Below, one piece after another: positions 19,501 through 26,517 of a DNA stretch of 43,590 nt; within the stretch, counting starts at the first letter, position 1, and each line of letters opens with the position of its first letter. Under the pieces are notes generated by a model. The model had not been told where the DNA came from. It made no database searches and saw nothing but the letters and a program-made list of their open reading frames with translations. Location of the stretch: contig CALMXF010000001.1 in NCBI GenBank assembly GCA_937870985.1, positions 1 through 43,590 on the forward strand. Reading direction: 5' to 3'. The stretch is from an uncultured Chloroflexota bacterium. GTDB taxonomy: Bacteria > Chloroflexota > Chloroflexia > Thermomicrobiales > CFX8. The position numbers and the translations under genes are program-made.

Positions 19501-20043
19501 GAGACTGCCGGCCAGAACATCCGCATGCTCGGCATTGTTGCAGCGATTCGAAAGCTATCGACGAGAACGAATCGGACGATGGCAGTGCTCCAGTTCGAAG
19601 ACCTCACCGGAGCGGTCGAGGTTGTGCTCTTTCCTGAAGCATTCGATCGCTTCGGCGCGCTCTGTGTCGAAGATCAGATCCTTGTCGTGCGCGGGCGCGC
19701 TGATTCACGGAATGACAGCGTCCAGGTTATCGCCGAAGATATCAGCCCCTACGAAGTGACGGATGAGCCTCCGCCAGCGATGGCGACAGTTGTCTGGTTG
19801 CGCCTCGCGGGCAGCGATAACCTGGATGAGGACGTGCGGCGAATGGAGCAGCTCGCGCGATTGCTCCGTGACTTTCCGGGAGACGACGAGGTGCTGCTGG
19901 AGATCGAGACCGCGCGAGAAGTTACCCATCTGCGCTCGAACCTCCGCGTCGATTGGTGCCCAGATCTCGACCGCGCTGTGAGCGACATCCTCGGGCGGGA
20001 CTGCGCGCGTGTCATCTCCGTCGCTGTACGCGAGAGACGATAA
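16561..20043 (+). CDS. dnaE: DNA polymerase III alpha subunit
   Basis: The replicative polymerase catalytic subunit, 1160 residues, standard length for DnaE. The N-terminal PHP domain keeps its metal-binding histidines (H6, H8, H10 in AHLHLHTEFS, and D41-H42), unlike E. coli, so it may retain a PHP proofreading nuclease. The polymerase core shows GVRGSAAASIVLFTLGIT and the catalytic aspartates in MPDIDMDFADNRR, and HAAGVVIS. The OB-fold domain near 980-1060 (MLGIVAAIRKLSTRTNRTM, TGAVEVVLFPEAF) follows the HhH tandem. ATG 16561 has GGAGGG at the correct spacing. It ends convergent with the Mur-like ligase gene. Confidence 0.98.
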   Translation: MSSFAHLHLHTEFSLLDGLGRIDDYMAKAVEFGMRHVALTDHGVMYGALDWYRAAKSHDLAPIVGVEAYLAPKRMSDRDSRSNYHLLLLAENERGYRNLLKLSSKASIDGFYYRPRIDLELLNELRDGLICTSACLGGPIANNYLEGRDTEAERLAGSLAEIFGRDHFYLEVQDHGMPEQQRVNRQLVDLARKMNLPLVATNDVHYVNREDAATQDLLVCIQTNTTLDDPKRMKMDSDQLYFKSPQEMEQLFGDLPEALENTIRIAERCNLSLDFDRLLLPDPGIPEGLTPQQHLAELCWGGLAARYPVLTDEVRQRLEYELWVIEQTGFASYMLIVRDFAQFARDRRIPFGVRGSAAASIVLFTLGITDIDPIANRLVFERFLNIERREMPDIDMDFADNRRQEVIDYVAQKYGHDRVAQIITFGTMGAKASVRDVGRALGWAPVDVDRVARLIPTTLGMTLERALIESSELRSLFDDDERVRRMIEVAQKLEGISRHAGTHAAGVVISAEPLVEHVPLQRPARGDENALPTTQFSMENVAAIGLLKMDFLGLANLTILGDAVDIIKQTRGELLEPNDLPDGDRVTYELLAQGETFGVFQLESAGMRRAIRELRPGSVAELAALVALYRPGPMQHISTFCQAKHGAQEIRYPHPDLAEILDETYGVIVYQDQVLLIAQRFAGYTLGEADIMRKAMGKKIPEKMRAERERFRSGAVEKGYTPADADKIFDLIEPFAGYAFNKAHAVCYGTIAYQTAYLKANYPAEYMTAVLRLAPSHPSGTAVRVAAAVAECAKLGIQILGPDINHSDVNFNIESLDDGRLAIRFGLAVIKNVGEGAVEEICRVRNEQAGGFASLEALCEAVDHSSLNKRVFESLIRGGALDTLGGRASALARLDTAIASAQRSQRARDRGQMDLFGGFLDDAAPTATTEIDVNPLPKKQLLAWEKEYLGTYLSEHPLTDITADARAHGRQYQPIADLDPETAGQNIRMLGIVAAIRKLSTRTNRTMAVLQFEDLTGAVEVVLFPEAFDRFGALCVEDQILVVRGRADSRNDSVQVIAEDISPYEVTDEPPPAMATVVWLRLAGSDNLDEDVRRMEQLARLLRDFPGDDEVLLEIETAREVTHLRSNLRVDWCPDLDRAVSDILGRDCARVISVAVRERR

Positions 20044-20140
20044 GCACGACGCGACTGCTGGCCGCTCGCGCATACGACATATCCCAGTAGCGCTAATACC
20101 CGTCAGGCTGCCCCGACCATCGGTCAATGATTCTCTGTCA

Positions 20141-20163
20141 CCGGACGCGGCGTAGCGTCCCGG
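20141..20163. terminator. Hairpin between convergent dnaE and Mur-like ligase genes
   Basis: CCGGACGC (20141-20148) can pair with GCGTCCCGG (20155-20163) with one bulged base and a six-base loop. No T tract on either side. Nothing else was seen in the 141-base gap. Confidence 0.3.
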
Positions 20164-20184
20164 CGCACGGCATGCGTCTGGACG

Positions 20185-21456
20185 TTATGAGTTGTGGGCG
20201 CCTTCGGGATTGCCGTGGCTGCTCCCCCGTCGTCGCGAGCTGAGATTGATTGCCGGAGCGGGCCAGAGGTGCGAAAGCGCCACCTCGGCGTCATCGACAA
20301 GGACAAGCGCGAGATCGTCGGTACCGATTGTATTGAGCAGTTGATCGACGGCCATCTCCTCATTCGCGACATTGATCACGATCGGTGGCACGGCGACTGT
20401 GGCTATTCCTGCCTTGATTGCCGCTATTCGTGCCTCATCGTCCGTTTCACCGTGCAGGAGGATGATTCCACCGATGCCACCGATAACGCGACCTGCCTCG
20501 TGGATCTCCGTGTCGGACAATCGAGGCAGACGCCCGCAGACGACAAGCGACCGGCGGTGGGGGATGTGACGAATGCCTCGCGCCAGTTGCTTGAGTGTCG
20601 CGACGAGCTCGGGCGCATCGGCAATGACGGTGGCTTCGTTGTACGCGAAGACATTTGCCGCAGCAGGCTGCAGATCGGGTTCTGTGGTGAACGAGAGCAG
20701 TGCAGCCTCAATGATGAGCGGGTCGATCCCGATCGCGACAGCAGCCGCTGTCGCGGCGAGGAGATTCTGAACCTGGAAGAGCATCGTGCCGCCCAATGTA
20801 GCAGGGACCGAGGCGACATCGATGACATGAGAGGACTCGTGTCGGTCACCGACGACTACTTGCCCGTCCTGGATCCAGCACCCGATCCCTCCCGCATTGA
20901 GGCGGGCCTGCAGGACGGGGTTGTCGTTGTGGAGCGCATAGGGGAACACCAGGCAGTGTGCCTTCGATGCAACCTCGTTGACATCGTAATCGTCGGCGTT
21001 GACAACAAGCATGCCGTCGGGTCGCATCGATTCCACGACGATATGCATAGCCTGCCGTTCCCGACTCGCATCCTCAGATAACAGGCAAGCCTCATTGTTG
21101 CCGCAGAGCGTTGTCATGATACCGACGGGGTATGTGTCCTTCGGAAGGCCTGCGGCGACAACAGTCGCGGCGGCCATCTCCTGAACGACGACCCGCAACT
21201 CCCCATAACGGGCGGCAAGGAGAACGCGAGCCCATGGCCCGAGCTCGCCATCCTGCTGTTCTCCCTCGACGTAGACGCCGGACGAGAGCCAGGCGGCGTC
21301 GGGCCATCCGGCCTTGTTGAAGATGCTGTTCAGCATCCAGGCGATCGTCGTCTTGCCAGACGTCCCAGCGATGGAGATGAGCGGGAGTGTCTCAGATTGT
21401 CCGCGATCGACGACCCGGCTTCTGAAACCGGGCGGTCGTGTGATGGTGTCGGTCAC
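20185..21456 (-). CDS. Mur ligase-family protein, similar to the C-terminal half of cyanophycin synthetase
   Basis: A 423-residue protein of the Mur ligase superfamily, with the P-loop GTSGKTT at 31-37 and the middle-domain segment VVVQEMAAATVVAAGL followed by GIMTTLCGN. The C-terminal domain (about 280-410) resembles the ligase domain of cyanophycin synthetases and does not match MurC-F. There is no ATP-grasp half, so it is not a normal cyanophycin synthetase. It should form a peptide-like bond through an acyl phosphate, with unknown substrates. GTG 21456 has GGAGTAGAGG upstream. It is the last gene of the glmS-tatD-rdgB unit, six bases after rdgB. Confidence 0.8.
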   Translation of the reverse strand: MTDTITRPPGFRSRVVDRGQSETLPLISIAGTSGKTTIAWMLNSIFNKAGWPDAAWLSSGVYVEGEQQDGELGPWARVLLAARYGELRVVVQEMAAATVVAAGLPKDTYPVGIMTTLCGNNEACLLSEDASRERQAMHIVVESMRPDGMLVVNADDYDVNEVASKAHCLVFPYALHNDNPVLQARLNAGGIGCWIQDGQVVVGDRHESSHVIDVASVPATLGGTMLFQVQNLLAATAAAVAIGIDPLIIEAALLSFTTEPDLQPAAANVFAYNEATVIADAPELVATLKQLARGIRHIPHRRSLVVCGRLPRLSDTEIHEAGRVIGGIGGIILLHGETDDEARIAAIKAGIATVAVPPIVINVANEEMAVDQLLNTIGTDDLALVLVDDAEVALSHLWPAPAINLSSRRRGSSHGNPEGAHNS

Positions 21457-21462
21457 CAGCCT

Positions 21463-22098
21463 CTACTCCTGTACTTCGTCAGCCGCGAGATGAGCCAGTA
21501 GCCCATGCGCGCGAAGACCGACGACGAGCGCTCGAATTGCCCGTCCCCGGTGCGAGATCGCGTTTTTTTCCTCTATCGACAGTTCGGCCATCGTTCGGCC
21601 GGCGAACGCGGGCGCGTCTGAATCGTGAATCTCGAAGAGTGGGTCGAAGCCGAAGCCATTCGAACCGCGCGGATGTTCCAGCACGATCCCGCGAATCGAC
21701 CCTTCGGTAACGCGCTCCTCACCGTCACGAGTGACAAACGCCGCCGCAGACACGAACCGTGCGCCTCGTTGGGCGCGGGGAACCCCGGCGAGTCGTCGGA
21801 GGAGCTCGCGATTGTTCGACTCGTCAGTTGCGCCGGGGCCGGAGAACCGCGCCGAGCGGATTCCAGGCTCTCCCTGAAGCGCATCGACCACGATCCCGGA
21901 GTCGTCGGCAATCGCGGCGTCGGCTCCCCCGGCCGCGTGCCGGGCCTTCAGAAGCGCGTTCTCTACAAAGGTCTCGCCATTCTCTTCGGGTGACTGAAGC
22001 CCCATCTCACCAAGCGTGAGTAACGTGACGTTCGCGGGTAACAGACGCTGGAGCTCCGCGATTTTTCCGGCGTTGTTGGTCGCGACAACTATTCGCAT
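21463..22098 (-). CDS. rdgB: XTP/dITP pyrophosphatase (RdgB/HAM1)
   Basis: Hydrolyses non-canonical purine triphosphates (XTP, dITP) to monophosphates, keeping deaminated purines out of DNA and RNA. The 211-residue protein shows VVATNNAGKIAELQRLL at the start, the active-site IADDSGIVVDALQGEPGI, GFGFDPLFEI and the closing ISHRGRAIRAL. ATG 22098 has GGAGG upstream and lies within the end of tatD (10-base overlap). It is part of the glmS-tatD-rdgB-Mur-like unit, so its expression probably falls when the glmS ribozyme cleaves. Confidence 0.96.
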   Translation of the reverse strand: MRIVVATNNAGKIAELQRLLPANVTLLTLGEMGLQSPEENGETFVENALLKARHAAGGADAAIADDSGIVVDALQGEPGIRSARFSGPGATDESNNRELLRRLAGVPRAQRGARFVSAAAFVTRDGEERVTEGSIRGIVLEHPRGSNGFGFDPLFEIHDSDAPAFAGRTMAELSIEEKNAISHRGRAIRALVVGLRAHGLLAHLAADEVQE

Positions 22099-22901
22099 GC
22101 GCGCCTCCGCGTTCCCGCCTTAATGGCGTCGGCAAGCGAATCGCCAAAGAGCTCGATGGCATTGTCTGTCGTTGCCTCGGCCAACTCCGCGAGATTCATT
22201 CCATGAATGCTGGCGAGCGTCTCGGCTGCGCGAACAATCATCGCTGGCTCATTTCGCGAACCGCGATGCCCCTGTGGCGCCAGATAGGGTGCGTCGGTCT
22301 CCAGGATCACTCGATTGAGGGGCGCAAACGCGAGCGCATCCCGGACCGAATCGGATGACTTATACGTCGCGACTCCGCCGACGCCAAGATACAGCCCGAG
22401 CTCGAGGCAACGCGACGCGAATTCCCGGTCGCCTGAGAAGCAATGCAGCACTCCCCGGATGGGGCCTTCCTGCTTGAGGAGGGCGATGACATCGTCCTCG
22501 GCGTTGCGCTGGTGAATTACAATCGGCGCATCAAGCCGCCGGGCGAGTCGCAGTTGCTCTTCGAACACAGCCCTCTGGATCGCTGGCTCGGCATGATCAC
22601 GGTAGTAATCCAGCCCTATCTCCCCGATGGCGACAACGCGTTGGTCGGCGGTTTCGCGTTCCAGGAGTGCCGGGAAGTCGTCAGTCCAGTCCTCGGCATG
22701 ATTCGGATGCAGACCGACAGTCCGGACGATCATGGGGTAGTGCTCGACCAGTGCCGCCGTTGTCGCCCAGCGTTCCTGGCTGAACCCGATTGCGATCATG
22801 GCGCTGACTCCGGCGGCGATGGCGCGCTCGATGGCCGCCTCCCGATCATCGTCAAACACCGGCAGATCCAGGTGCGCATGCGTGTCGACGAGCGTGATCA
22901 T
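22089..22901 (-). CDS. tatD: TatD-family metal-dependent deoxyribonuclease
   Basis: A 270-residue TIM-barrel hydrolase with the TatD metal ligands: H8 and H10 in DTHAHLD, the glutamate in AIGEIGLDYY, a histidine in IVIHQRNAE, another in GVLHCFSGD, and the aspartate in ILETDAPYLAPQGHRG. Members degrade DNA 3'-5' and help in repair or DNA clearance. The ATG overlaps the glmS stop as ATGA, and the end overlaps rdgB by ten bases, so the three are translationally coupled. Confidence 0.95.
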   Translation of the reverse strand: MITLVDTHAHLDLPVFDDDREAAIERAIAAGVSAMIAIGFSQERWATTAALVEHYPMIVRTVGLHPNHAEDWTDDFPALLERETADQRVVAIGEIGLDYYRDHAEPAIQRAVFEEQLRLARRLDAPIVIHQRNAEDDVIALLKQEGPIRGVLHCFSGDREFASRCLELGLYLGVGGVATYKSSDSVRDALAFAPLNRVILETDAPYLAPQGHRGSRNEPAMIVRAAETLASIHGMNLAELAEATTDNAIELFGDSLADAIKAGTRRRACE

Positions 22902-24673
22902 TTCACGGTCACACTCTTCGCGAGGTTCCGTGGCTTGTCCGGGTCGAACCCACGACGCAGCGCGAGCTGATAGCCGAGCATCTGGGCAGGAGGCGCCATC
23001 ACCAATGGTGAGGCATCGGCGACGTCAGCGATCGGCAGGTGAATATCGAAGACCTCGTCGTTCTCGGGCGAGATACCGATGATCAACCCTCCACGGGCTT
23101 TCAGCTCCATCGCCCCAGAGATGATGTCCGTCCGCGTCTCGTCGAGCGGCGAGTATACGATGCACGGAGTTCCGGGCTCGATCAACGCGATGACGCCATG
23201 TTTGAGCTCTCCCCCCGCGAAACCCTCCGCGTGGAGATACGAGACCTCCTTGATCTTGAGCGCGGCTTCAAGGGCGGTCGGGTAGGAGAGTCCGCGGCCA
23301 ATGATGAACAGGTTCTGGCTTGCGTTGACGGTCTCGGCAACGCCGTGAACGCGGTCGATGAACCCGGGTGTCAACGCCGCGCTGACGCCATCCACCGCGC
23401 GCCAGAGCAGATCACGTCCGACATGTTCCGAGCCGTTGAGGATATGCGCGGTGAGCAGCAGCGTCGCGACTTTTGCTGTGTAGGCTTTGGTTGACAGAAC
23501 ACACTGTTCTGGGCCGGCATCGAGATGCACGGAGAAATCGGCGATTCGGTCAAGGGTCGAACCTTTGACGTTCACGAGTGCCACGATCTTCGCGCCGCGC
23601 TCGCGGGCTGCCAGCACCGGCTCGATGACATCCACCGTCTCGCCCGATTGCGACAACGCGACCACCAGCGAGCGATCGGTGAGGAAATGTTCCTGGTATT
23701 CGAACTCGCTGCCCACCACGAAGTTGACGTGCCGTCGGGCGATCCGCGAGAACAGGTAACTTCCCGTGAGGGCGGCGTATGACGCGGTTCCACAGCCGAC
23801 CAGGAACGTGCCATACGAACTCTGGATCAGCCGGGCGAGCTCCCGCGTCTCATCAAGCTTGTCCCGCGCGATTCGCTCGAGGACGGCCGGCTGCTCGTGC
23901 ATCTCCTTGAGCATGTAGTGTGGATAGCCGCCGAGCTCGGCCGAACCCTCCTCAACGGGAATGTCGGCCCAGACGAGCGGCCATGCCTGACCGTCACGAG
24001 CATCGATCGAGGTGATGCCGTCATGCTCGAGCTGGACGAGCTGATAGTCCTCCAGATAGGACACGCGCTCGGTATGCCCTGCGAGAGCGAGTGTGTCTGA
24101 CGCGATGAACGATCCGGATTCGCGTTGCCCGATGACCAGCGGAGAGACGTGTTTGATCGCAGTCAGTGTTCGCGTTGAACGATCGAGCACGATGATTGCG
24201 TTCAGGCCCCGCAACTGCATGAACGCCCGTGCGACGGCGGAGCGCACAGCCTCGGGGGTATCACCCTGGCCCAGCAGATCGCTGACGAGGTGTGCCACGA
24301 CCTCCGTGTCGGTTTCGCTGTGAAATGCGTACCCGCGCTCTGTCAATGACGTGCGTAGCGAGCGGAAGTTCTCGATGATGCCATTGTGAATGACGGCCAG
24401 CCGGCCAGATGCGTCCGGTATTGGATGTGCGTTCGCTTCGCAGACGCCACCGTGGGTGGCCCAGCGCGTGTGGCCGAAGCCGATATCGGAGGCCGGCAAG
24501 TCGACCATGGCAGACCCGATCTTGCCGACGTGCTTCTCTATCTCGATGTGGTTGTTGATTCCGACTGCGACACCCCAGGAGTCATACCCCCGGTATTCGA
24601 GTCGTTTCAATGCCTGAAGGACCATCCCGCCGGTGTCAGTGTACGCTCCGACATAGCCGAATATTCCGCACAT
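22898..24673 (-). CDS. glmS: Glutamine--fructose-6-phosphate aminotransferase (isomerizing)
   Basis: Makes glucosamine-6-phosphate from fructose-6-phosphate and glutamine, the entry to UDP-GlcNAc, peptidoglycan and glycans. The 591-residue protein (family about 600) begins MCGIFGYVG with the N-terminal nucleophile Cys2, then RWATHG and HNGIIEN of the glutaminase domain. Two SIS isomerase domains follow (VGCGTASYAALTG; ALSQSGETVDVIEP; IGRGLSYPTALEAALK), ending FDPDKPRNLAKSVTVK. The gene is preceded by a leader of about 280 bases containing a glmS ribozyme, so feedback by glucosamine-6-phosphate is expected. It is the first gene of a four-gene unit; tatD overlaps its stop by four bases. Confidence 0.98.
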   Translation of the reverse strand: MCGIFGYVGAYTDTGGMVLQALKRLEYRGYDSWGVAVGINNHIEIEKHVGKIGSAMVDLPASDIGFGHTRWATHGGVCEANAHPIPDASGRLAVIHNGIIENFRSLRTSLTERGYAFHSETDTEVVAHLVSDLLGQGDTPEAVRSAVARAFMQLRGLNAIIVLDRSTRTLTAIKHVSPLVIGQRESGSFIASDTLALAGHTERVSYLEDYQLVQLEHDGITSIDARDGQAWPLVWADIPVEEGSAELGGYPHYMLKEMHEQPAVLERIARDKLDETRELARLIQSSYGTFLVGCGTASYAALTGSYLFSRIARRHVNFVVGSEFEYQEHFLTDRSLVVALSQSGETVDVIEPVLAARERGAKIVALVNVKGSTLDRIADFSVHLDAGPEQCVLSTKAYTAKVATLLLTAHILNGSEHVGRDLLWRAVDGVSAALTPGFIDRVHGVAETVNASQNLFIIGRGLSYPTALEAALKIKEVSYLHAEGFAGGELKHGVIALIEPGTPCIVYSPLDETRTDIISGAMELKARGGLIIGISPENDEVFDIHLPIADVADASPLVMAPPAQMLGYQLALRRGFDPDKPRNLAKSVTVK

Positions 24674-24779
24674 GCGCGCAACCTTCCGGCCCGCGCGGTA
24701 ACGCGGGCGAGTGCGATGTCAACATCACGAGCTTGTTGGAAGCGCGGCGGGCGATCTGAACCCCGTCGGGATCCTCTAT

Positions 24780-24923
24780 CTGCACATGGGATCCGATTGT
24801 GCGGTGAATTGCTCCACCGGTTTCCGAAAACCCTGCGAGCGTGCTACCCGGAAGGCCATCCGCCGAATCGTTCGATCAGGCCTTCTCCTCGTCACCTCAC
24901 GCCTCCACGTGAGGCCAGGCGCT
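24780..24923 (-). ncRNA. glmS ribozyme (glucosamine-6-phosphate-activated self-cleaving riboswitch)
   Basis: Minus-strand RNA in the glmS leader. The cleavage site A/GCGCC lies between 24923 and 24922. P1 is a perfect 7-bp stem (24908-24914 with 24895-24901). The invariant UGACGAGG follows (24894-24887). P2 arms AGAAGGCC (24886-24879) and GGCCUUC (24857-24851) enclose UGAUCGAAC and the hallmark AUUCGGCGGAU (24868-24858). Further hairpins (P3/P4 region) extend to about 24780; the 3' edge is approximate. In the family, glucosamine-6-phosphate acts as the catalytic cofactor, and cleavage leaves a 5'-OH mRNA that is degraded, shutting down glmS. A promoter about 40 bases upstream fits. Confidence 0.9.
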
Positions 24924-24963
24924 ACAGTGCCGGAACCTTCATCCCAGCGCGCATTCCATCGTC

Positions 24964-24992
24964 ACTATACCCGCCTGCCATGCGCCGGACAA
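24964..24992 (-). promoter_or_regulatory. Promoter of the glmS operon
   Basis: Minus strand TTGTCC (24992-24987), 17 bases, TATAGT (24969-24964). Transcription would start near 24957, about 35 bases before the ribozyme cleavage site. Confidence 0.55.
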
Positions 24993-25022
24993 GACGGCGC
25001 GCCATCGATCGCGAACGTTCGG

Positions 25023-25028
25023 TATACT
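25023..25028 (+). promoter_or_regulatory. -10 element of the purine operon promoter
   Basis: TATACT about 165 bases before purB. Immediately upstream is the palindrome CGAACGTTCG (25012-25021), possibly an operator. No clear -35 or TG extension. Confidence 0.4.
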
Positions 25029-25063
25029 CATGCGGACTGGCCGTTCGGGCGCGGCGGAGATGC

Positions 25064-25195
25064 ATGAACGATCGACCAAGACGCGAACCGATCCTCAGCA
25101 GGTCGGCATCCTGGGCCGGCCCGGTCTCAGCGCACACCCGCCATTTTGAACTCACCACCACAGTGAAGCAACGAGAGAGCGACGCGCACGCGTGA
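25064..25195 (+). CDS. Possible 43-residue upstream ORF in the purB leader
   Basis: ATG with GGCGGAGA five bases upstream, encoding a basic 43-residue peptide (begins MNDRPRREPILSRSASWAG) and ending in a TGA that overlaps the purB GTG by four bases (GTGA). purB itself has only a weak ribosome site, so translation may be coupled to this ORF. The peptide has no recognised family and no run of regulatory codons. It may be a leader, a coupling device or chance. Confidence 0.35.
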   Translation: MNDRPRREPILSRSASWAGPVSAHTRHFELTTTVKQRESDAHA

Positions 25196-26517
25196 TCGAA
25201 CGCTACACGCTGCCCGAGATGGGCATCATCTGGAGTGAGCAACACAAGATCGACCAGTGGCTTGCCGTTGAAAAGGCGGTCTGCGAAGCGTGGGCCGCAC
25301 GAGGCGTGATTCCGGCAGACGCGATGCCGGCCATTCGCCAGGCCACCTGCAGCGTCGATCGAATGAAGGAGATCGAGCGCGAAACCGACCACGATGTCAT
25401 CGCGTTTCTGCGCGCCACCGGGGAGACAGTCGGCGAAGCGGCGCGGTTCATCCACCTCGGATTGACAAGCTCCGATGTCATCGACACTGCTCTGGCGATG
25501 CAGACAGTCAACGCGGTCGATCAGCTGCTTTCGCGGCTCGACATTGCCATTGATGTCGTCGGGCGGCAGGCGCTCGCGCATCGGAAGACGCTGATGATCG
25601 GTCGGACCCACGGAGTGCACGCCGAACCAATCACGTTCGGCTTCAAGCTCGCAGTCTGGTACGACGAGCTCCGCCGTAATCGCGTCCGCTTGCAGGCTGC
25701 ACGGGAGACGATACGGGTCGGCAAGATCTCCGGCGCCGTGGGCACTCATGCAAACGTGCCACCGGATATCGAAGAGGATGTCTGCGTGGCCCTGGGTCTG
25801 GCTGTCGCGCCTGTCTCAACTCAGATCATTCAGCGCGACCGTCATGCGGAAGTTGTTGCAGCGCTCGCAGTTCTGGCGTCGTCGCTGGACAAGTTCGCTG
25901 TCGAGATCCGCCACCTCGCGCGCACTGAAGTGCGCGAGCTCGAGGAGGCGTTTGACCCGGGCAATCAAGGCTCGTCCGCGATGCCACATAAGCGCAATCC
26001 GCACGAGAGCGAGCGTCTCAGTGGACTGGCCCGACTTGTTCGCGGCTACGCGGTGACGGCGCTTGAGAATGTCGCGCTGTGGCATGAGCGGGATATCTCC
26101 AACTCATCAGCCGAGCGTGTCATCTTCCCGGATGCGTTCATCATCGTCGATTACATGCTGCACCTGTTCGCCGATCTCGTTGACAACTGGGTGGTATATC
26201 CGGAGCGGATGCGCCAGAACCTCGATATGACCGGCGGCGCGATCTTCTCGCAACGCGCAATGCTCAAGCTCATCGAAGGCGGCCTCGATCGACAGGTCGC
26301 CTACAAGCTCATTCAACGCAATGCGATGCTGGCGTGGGACAAGGGCGGTCACCTTCGCGATTACTTGCGGAGCGAGCCGGACGTTACCGCCTTGCTGACC
26401 GACGATCAGATCGACGATCTGTTCGACTACGGCTATCACCTCCAGCATATTGACCGCGCATTCGAACGCGTTGGCCTGTTGGATCCAGCGCAATCCGGAC
26501 CAGGAGGTCGAGCATGA
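25192..26517 (+). CDS. purB: Adenylosuccinate lyase
   Basis: Cleaves SAICAR to AICAR and adenylosuccinate to AMP, each releasing fumarate. The 441-residue protein has the superfamily signature SSAMPHKRNP at 261-270 on the mobile catalytic loop, H67 in ETDHDVIAF and H140/H143 in GRTHGVHAEP, all family active-site elements. The length is that of the B. subtilis type. GTG 25192 starts MIERYTLPEMGIIWSE, the usual N-terminus, and overlaps a small upstream ORF. It opens the operon purB-C-S-Q-L-F, with a 4-base overlap to purC. Confidence 0.97.
   Translation: MIERYTLPEMGIIWSEQHKIDQWLAVEKAVCEAWAARGVIPADAMPAIRQATCSVDRMKEIERETDHDVIAFLRATGETVGEAARFIHLGLTSSDVIDTALAMQTVNAVDQLLSRLDIAIDVVGRQALAHRKTLMIGRTHGVHAEPITFGFKLAVWYDELRRNRVRLQAARETIRVGKISGAVGTHANVPPDIEEDVCVALGLAVAPVSTQIIQRDRHAEVVAALAVLASSLDKFAVEIRHLARTEVRELEEAFDPGNQGSSAMPHKRNPHESERLSGLARLVRGYAVTALENVALWHERDISNSSAERVIFPDAFIIVDYMLHLFADLVDNWVVYPERMRQNLDMTGGAIFSQRAMLKLIEGGLDRQVAYKLIQRNAMLAWDKGGHLRDYLRSEPDVTALLTDDQIDDLFDYGYHLQHIDRAFERVGLLDPAQSGPGGRA

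Follow-up and report, generated by a model that had tools for sequence, protein, structure and literature searches.

A glmS ribozyme in the leader of a four-gene unit of a Thermomicrobiales bacterium and its variant relatives in Chloroflexota

The minus-strand glmS leader in a 43,590-nucleotide (nt) stretch of Chloroflexota DNA (the window, analyzed at its full length) raised two questions: whether it contains a genuine glmS ribozyme, as an earlier note on the letters of this DNA had proposed, and whether such a ribozyme would control glmS alone or the genes behind it as well.

Identity and fold of the leader element

Scanning of the whole window with cmscan and Rfam 15 yielded a single glmS (RF00234) match, at 24934-24778 on the minus strand. 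With 72.6 bits (E 6.3e-15), it scored nearly twice the gathering score of 37, and it covered model positions 1-167 of 167, showing that the element is full length and not truncated (feature 24778-24934). The Infernal search of the minus strand proposed in the earlier note thus gave one significant full-model match, and the ribozyme call was confirmed. The Rfam alignment places the predicted self-cleavage site between A24923 and G24922, where the earlier note had expected it. In a genome-wide search, no second glmS ribozyme copy was found.

The whole set of core motifs, A/GCGCC (cut at the slash), GACGAGG, AUCGA, and UUCGGCGGAU, was found in the window element. These motifs are invariant or nearly so across an alignment of 33 sequences (the window element and 32 relatives, most of them from its own order), and every core position that is invariant in the alignment is also present in the window. 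P1, P2, P2.1, P2.2, P3, the P3.1 pseudoknot, and P4 with a GNRA loop were all resolved, each on the minus strand. The P1 stem-loop (24894-24915) has 8 pairs from G24915-U24894 inward, 6 of which are changed on both sides across relatives. It is followed by GACGAGG (24887-24893; present in 33 of 33 sequences), the last G of which (G24887) corresponds to G42 of Bacillus subtilis, the active-site guanine (PMC11602151). The P2 region including the double pseudoknot P2.1/P2.2 spans 24851-24885; its strands 24885-24880 and 24856-24851 form P2, with 5 of 6 pairs covarying. P2.1 comprises C24891-G24873 and G24890-C24874, and P2.2 comprises C24921-G24861, G24920-C24862, C24919-G24863, and C24918-G24864. 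P2.1 and P2.2 are 100% paired and never vary in the 33 sequences, and are therefore conserved without independent covariation support. The order P1, UGACGAGG (24894-24887), P2, and AUUCGGCGGAU (24868-24858) given in the earlier note agrees with the coordinates of the Rfam alignment.

The 3' part of the element had been described as unusual, a description that did not hold: it contains a standard P3, P3.1 pseudoknot, IL4 purine loop, and GNRA-capped P4. The P3 hairpin (24836-24850; stem 24850-24846 with 24840-24836) carries the loop GCAC, which pairs with GUGC at 24785-24782 to form P3.1 (97.7% paired; 3 of 4 pairs covarying). This GUGC strand is the true 3' edge of the ribozyme, so that the previously given edge at 24780 was nearly right. 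P4 (24788-24833) contains the IL4 purines (AAA / ACAA) and a GCAA tetraloop (24812-24809), and 13 of its 14 pairs covary. In the window, it has one U-U mismatch and some weak or wobble pairs, and the third base of the 3' purine run of IL4 is U, not A; U also occurs at this place in relatives.

Covariation was scored in the alignment for 44 named pairs, all pseudoknots included, with 500 shuffles and slid partners as controls. Pairing was found in 96.0% of the pair cells, versus a shuffled mean of 79.2% and 31-41% in the slid controls. The covariation score was 0.500 versus 0.179 for the shuffled alignments, none of which reached 0.500, and 28 of the 44 pairs change on both sides. By minimum free energy (MFE), the 157-nt element folded no better than its shuffles (z -0.5). 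This poor value, and nothing beyond it, would suit a chance resemblance or a different kind of leader RNA. It is uninformative, however, because the real fold is pseudoknotted, and it is expected for a G+C-rich pseudoknotted RNA. The E-value of 6e-15, the covariation, and the presence of the ribozyme upstream of glmS across Thermomicrobiales loci refute this reading, the probability of which we regard as negligible.

We also considered a degenerate relic that kept the fold of a glmS ribozyme and lost its activity. The score of 72.6 bits, compared to up to 107 bits in thermophilic relatives, and the mismatched P4 could be read in this way. However, the catalytic and pseudoknot positions are all intact, and compensatory changes continue between two members of the genus: a same-genus relative, identical to the window element at 128 of 157 positions, differs from it in P4 by U-A/C-G and G-C/A-U replacements. 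A relic is thus very improbable. With high confidence, we consider the window element to be a genuine full-length glmS ribozyme, which, judging from its family, would exert negative feedback on glucosamine-6-phosphate (GlcN6P) synthesis.

Compared to the RF00234 examples of B. subtilis, B. anthracis, and T. tengcongensis, the element has the same cleavage site, P1, P2/P2.1/P2.2 double pseudoknot, P3/P3.1, IL4, GNRA-capped P4, and position in the glmS leader. It differs from them in being G+C-rich, in its short P1 (8 pairs), in the single P4 mismatch, and in heading a glmS-tatD-rdgB-Mur/CphA-like unit. The ribozymes of other Thermomicrobiales (Sphaerobacter sp. HOG56, Thermalbibacter longus, and Thermomicrobium sp.) share its architecture, leader position, operon, and divergent purB, and differ from it mainly in stem sequences. 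Structural variants with extra core stems were reportedly described by McCown in 2011 from Deinococcus-Thermus. Such stems are absent from the window element and present in Chloroflexia-class and glnA-linked relatives (see below).

The glmS-tatD-rdgB-Mur/CphA-like unit and its control

The ribozyme ends approximately 108 nt upstream of the start of glmS (22898-24673, minus strand), which encodes the isomerizing glutamine--fructose-6-phosphate transaminase (TIGR01135, 574 bits) and is the only glmS found in a search of the genome. On the same strand follow genes for a TatD-family nuclease (22089-22901; PF01026, TIGR00010), the RdgB/HAM1 non-canonical purine NTP pyrophosphatase (21463-22098; PF01725, TIGR00042), and a stand-alone protein with a Mur ligase middle domain (20185-21456; PF08245, 35 bits). 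The best NCBIfam match of the latter was to cyanophycin synthetase (NF010623), with 190 bits, covering residues 473-859 of 871 and thus the C-terminal half; this score is well short of the 877 set as the cut-off for a full-length match. Because of this match and the Mur middle domain, we named the product a Mur/CphA-like ligase; the "Mur-like" label of the earlier note was right about the domain, although the protein resembles true Mur enzymes less than it does the C-terminal ligase half of cyanophycin synthetase. The fourth gene is conserved behind rdgB in Thermomicrobiales, and a search of viral contigs yielded no relatives of it.

The glmS stop codon and the tatD start codon share ATGA, rdgB and tatD overlap by 10 nt, and the fourth gene lies 6 nt behind rdgB. 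The ATGA and the 10-nt overlap suggest translational coupling. The unit is flanked by a divergent purB and a convergent dnaE, and a ribozyme followed by genes in the order glmS-tatD-rdgB-Mur/CphA-like was present in at least 26 related loci. The ribozyme therefore heads a four-gene coupled unit, as had been claimed.

A sigma-70-like promoter candidate (TTGTCC-17-TATAGT; 24964-24992, minus strand) lies ahead of the ribozyme, with 41 nt between the -10 box and the cut; a promoter some 40 bases upstream had been predicted. Taken alone, such a match is no more than chance would give (1 found versus 1.3 expected per region), and it carries weight only through its conservation within the genus: the same-genus relative L112 has TTGCCC-17-TATAGT, likewise 41 nt from the cut. 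Beyond the family, the position of the promoter is not constant. In a simple scan of 19900-25400, the site ahead of the ribozyme was the sole promoter-like site, and no promoter-like or terminator-like site was detected between the four genes.

In B. subtilis, GlcN6P occupies a pre-formed pocket as the cofactor for self-cleavage of the leader, and the product with a 5'-hydroxyl end is degraded by RNase J1 (PMC3328962; PMC11476745). One RNase J above the cut-off (527 versus 400 bits) was found in the genome studied here. By analogy, plentiful GlcN6P would enter a pre-formed pocket as a cofactor, and the leader would be self-cleaved at A24923/G24922, after which RNase J would degrade the downstream product, now with a 5' hydroxyl end, in the 5' to 3' direction. 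The GlmS level would fall, and the co-transcribed tatD, rdgB, and Mur/CphA-like genes would probably fall with it. A reduction of the last three genes on cleavage is plausible on this model, and internal promoters invisible to a simple scan could blunt it.

Does the ribozyme act on the operon or on glmS only? That it serves in Thermomicrobiales as an operon-level switch, in which GlcN6P-dependent cleavage would set the levels of the TatD nuclease, RdgB, and the CphA/Mur-like ligase together with that of GlmS, is a proposal that we find evenly balanced between true and false. A real ribozyme whose cleavage controls glmS alone, with tatD, rdgB, and the fourth gene expressed from internal promoters or stabilized by processing, seems to us rather unlikely. 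It would fit three loci of the order (L041, L044, and L118) and the class-level relatives, in which the ribozyme precedes glmS and tatD does not follow directly; these arrangements argue against a functional bond between the genes and the switch. Against control of glmS alone stand the lack of promoter-like and terminator-like sites between the genes in the scan described above, the overlaps suggestive of translational coupling, and the gene order kept in the related loci.

Occurrence and variant relatives in Chloroflexota

The earlier note had called a copy in Chloroflexota notable. We counted a ribozyme as present in a genome if a match had an E-value of 0.001 or better. By this measure, 54 of 61 genomes of the window's own order (identified from GlmS relatives as Thermomicrobiales), 75 of 101 relatives, and 128 of 400 genomes sampled across the phylum contain a glmS ribozyme. 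The remaining 7 genomes of the order are drafts with 65-90% completeness. The named GlmS relatives, from Sphaerobacter, Thermalbibacter, Thermomicrobium, and other Thermomicrobiales, have approximately 60-68% identity and assign the window to this order of Chloroflexota. Essentially every Thermomicrobiales GlmS locus for which enough upstream sequence was available has a ribozyme ahead of glmS. Since the class is widespread in the phylum, its occurrence in the window is unremarkable. In the literature examined, we found no count of glmS ribozymes for Chloroflexota. Three loci labeled Rubrobacter (L053 and L057) or Proteobacteria (L056) have a GlmS and a ribozyme that are both of Chloroflexota type, and their organism labels are probably wrong. 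A Levyibacteriota (Patescibacteria) bin contains a glmS ribozyme directly upstream of glmS (L068, 5744-5943; 62.5 bits), possibly owing to a binning error; the remaining Patescibacteria GlmS loci that were retrieved yielded none.

In relatives of the class Chloroflexia (L125-L130), P2 holds large additional hairpins and the core sequences vary. The core is GCGCA/AUCAGCGG in L125, L126, L127, and L130, and AACGAGG in L128 (2215-2495) and L129 (1971-2235), where a stricter Rfam scan misplaced the 5' end. A loss of GACGAGG in the f12 relatives was ruled out: the Rfam match was misplaced, and a permissive scan reached the true 5' end with AACGAGG.

In the Chloroflexota family f52, some genomes hold two glmS-class RNAs, the second of which lies approximately 300 nt in front of glnA. 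In five genomes, this glnA was above the curated cut-off for type I glutamine synthetase. The variant pattern was present in 36 of 121 f52 genomes (13 of 40 genera), versus 0 for reversed-pattern controls, and in the 400-genome phylum sample it was found in f52 and f19 only. Among 31 fetched variant loci, 30 have glnA downstream (29 of 30 in f52 and one in f19). Loci with the variant are L133 (2330-2547), L135 (4879-4662), L139 (1889-2108), and L144-L173 and L181 (around position 1501; for instance, 1495-1712 in L153). The exception is L164 (1501-1780), in which the variant precedes a 44-aa open reading frame with a good ribosome-binding site; this genome has a second copy. In L138 (1598-1773), L168 (1759-1584), L170 (1283-1458), and L181 (1297-1472), the glnA-type ribozyme is closely preceded by a match to 6S RNA.

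The variant core AGCGRCUG / AUCAGCGG reads as a P2.2 in which a purine is bulged out and pairs are added (C-G, G-C, bulge, C-G, U-A, G-C). Two extra hairpins inside P2 are present in addition to P3, P3.1, and a GNRA-capped P4. Across the variants, 39 pairs are kept at 96.9%, with a covariation score of 0.366 versus 0.157 for shuffled controls. The Rfam scores of these loci straddle the gathering score, ranging from 53 bits down to below 30. A possible role of the variant would be feedback of GlcN6P on glutamine supply. In the 2011 work of McCown, only two of 463 glmS ribozymes reportedly lay outside glmS mRNAs, and our literature search found no paper on control of glnA by a glmS ribozyme.

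The glmS-linked copies in the same f52 genomes have the canonical GCGCC/GGCGG core and seemingly lack P4, as in L132 (2480-2648), L134 (5024-4814), L136 (1884-2088), and L137 (2074-2232). Some of them have only a few dozen nt between P3 and the glmS start. In genome G371 (L132), a glnA-type (395-602) and a glmS-type ribozyme (2480-2648) are arranged in tandem before glnA and glmS, 2 kb apart.

Taken alone, the window element adds little to the known picture and serves chiefly as a lead to these variant relatives. Judged by the glnA-linked subclass, the copies without P4, and the copy in the Patescibacteria bin, glmS ribozymes of Chloroflexota and its surroundings seem to vary more in structure and regulation than the picture drawn from Firmicutes conveys. 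The glmS ribozyme is a standard regulator in a large phylum outside the Firmicutes, and it can head long operons. If the operon-level switch is true, it would link the upkeep of the nucleotide pool and an amino-acid ligase to the supply of precursors for the cell wall.
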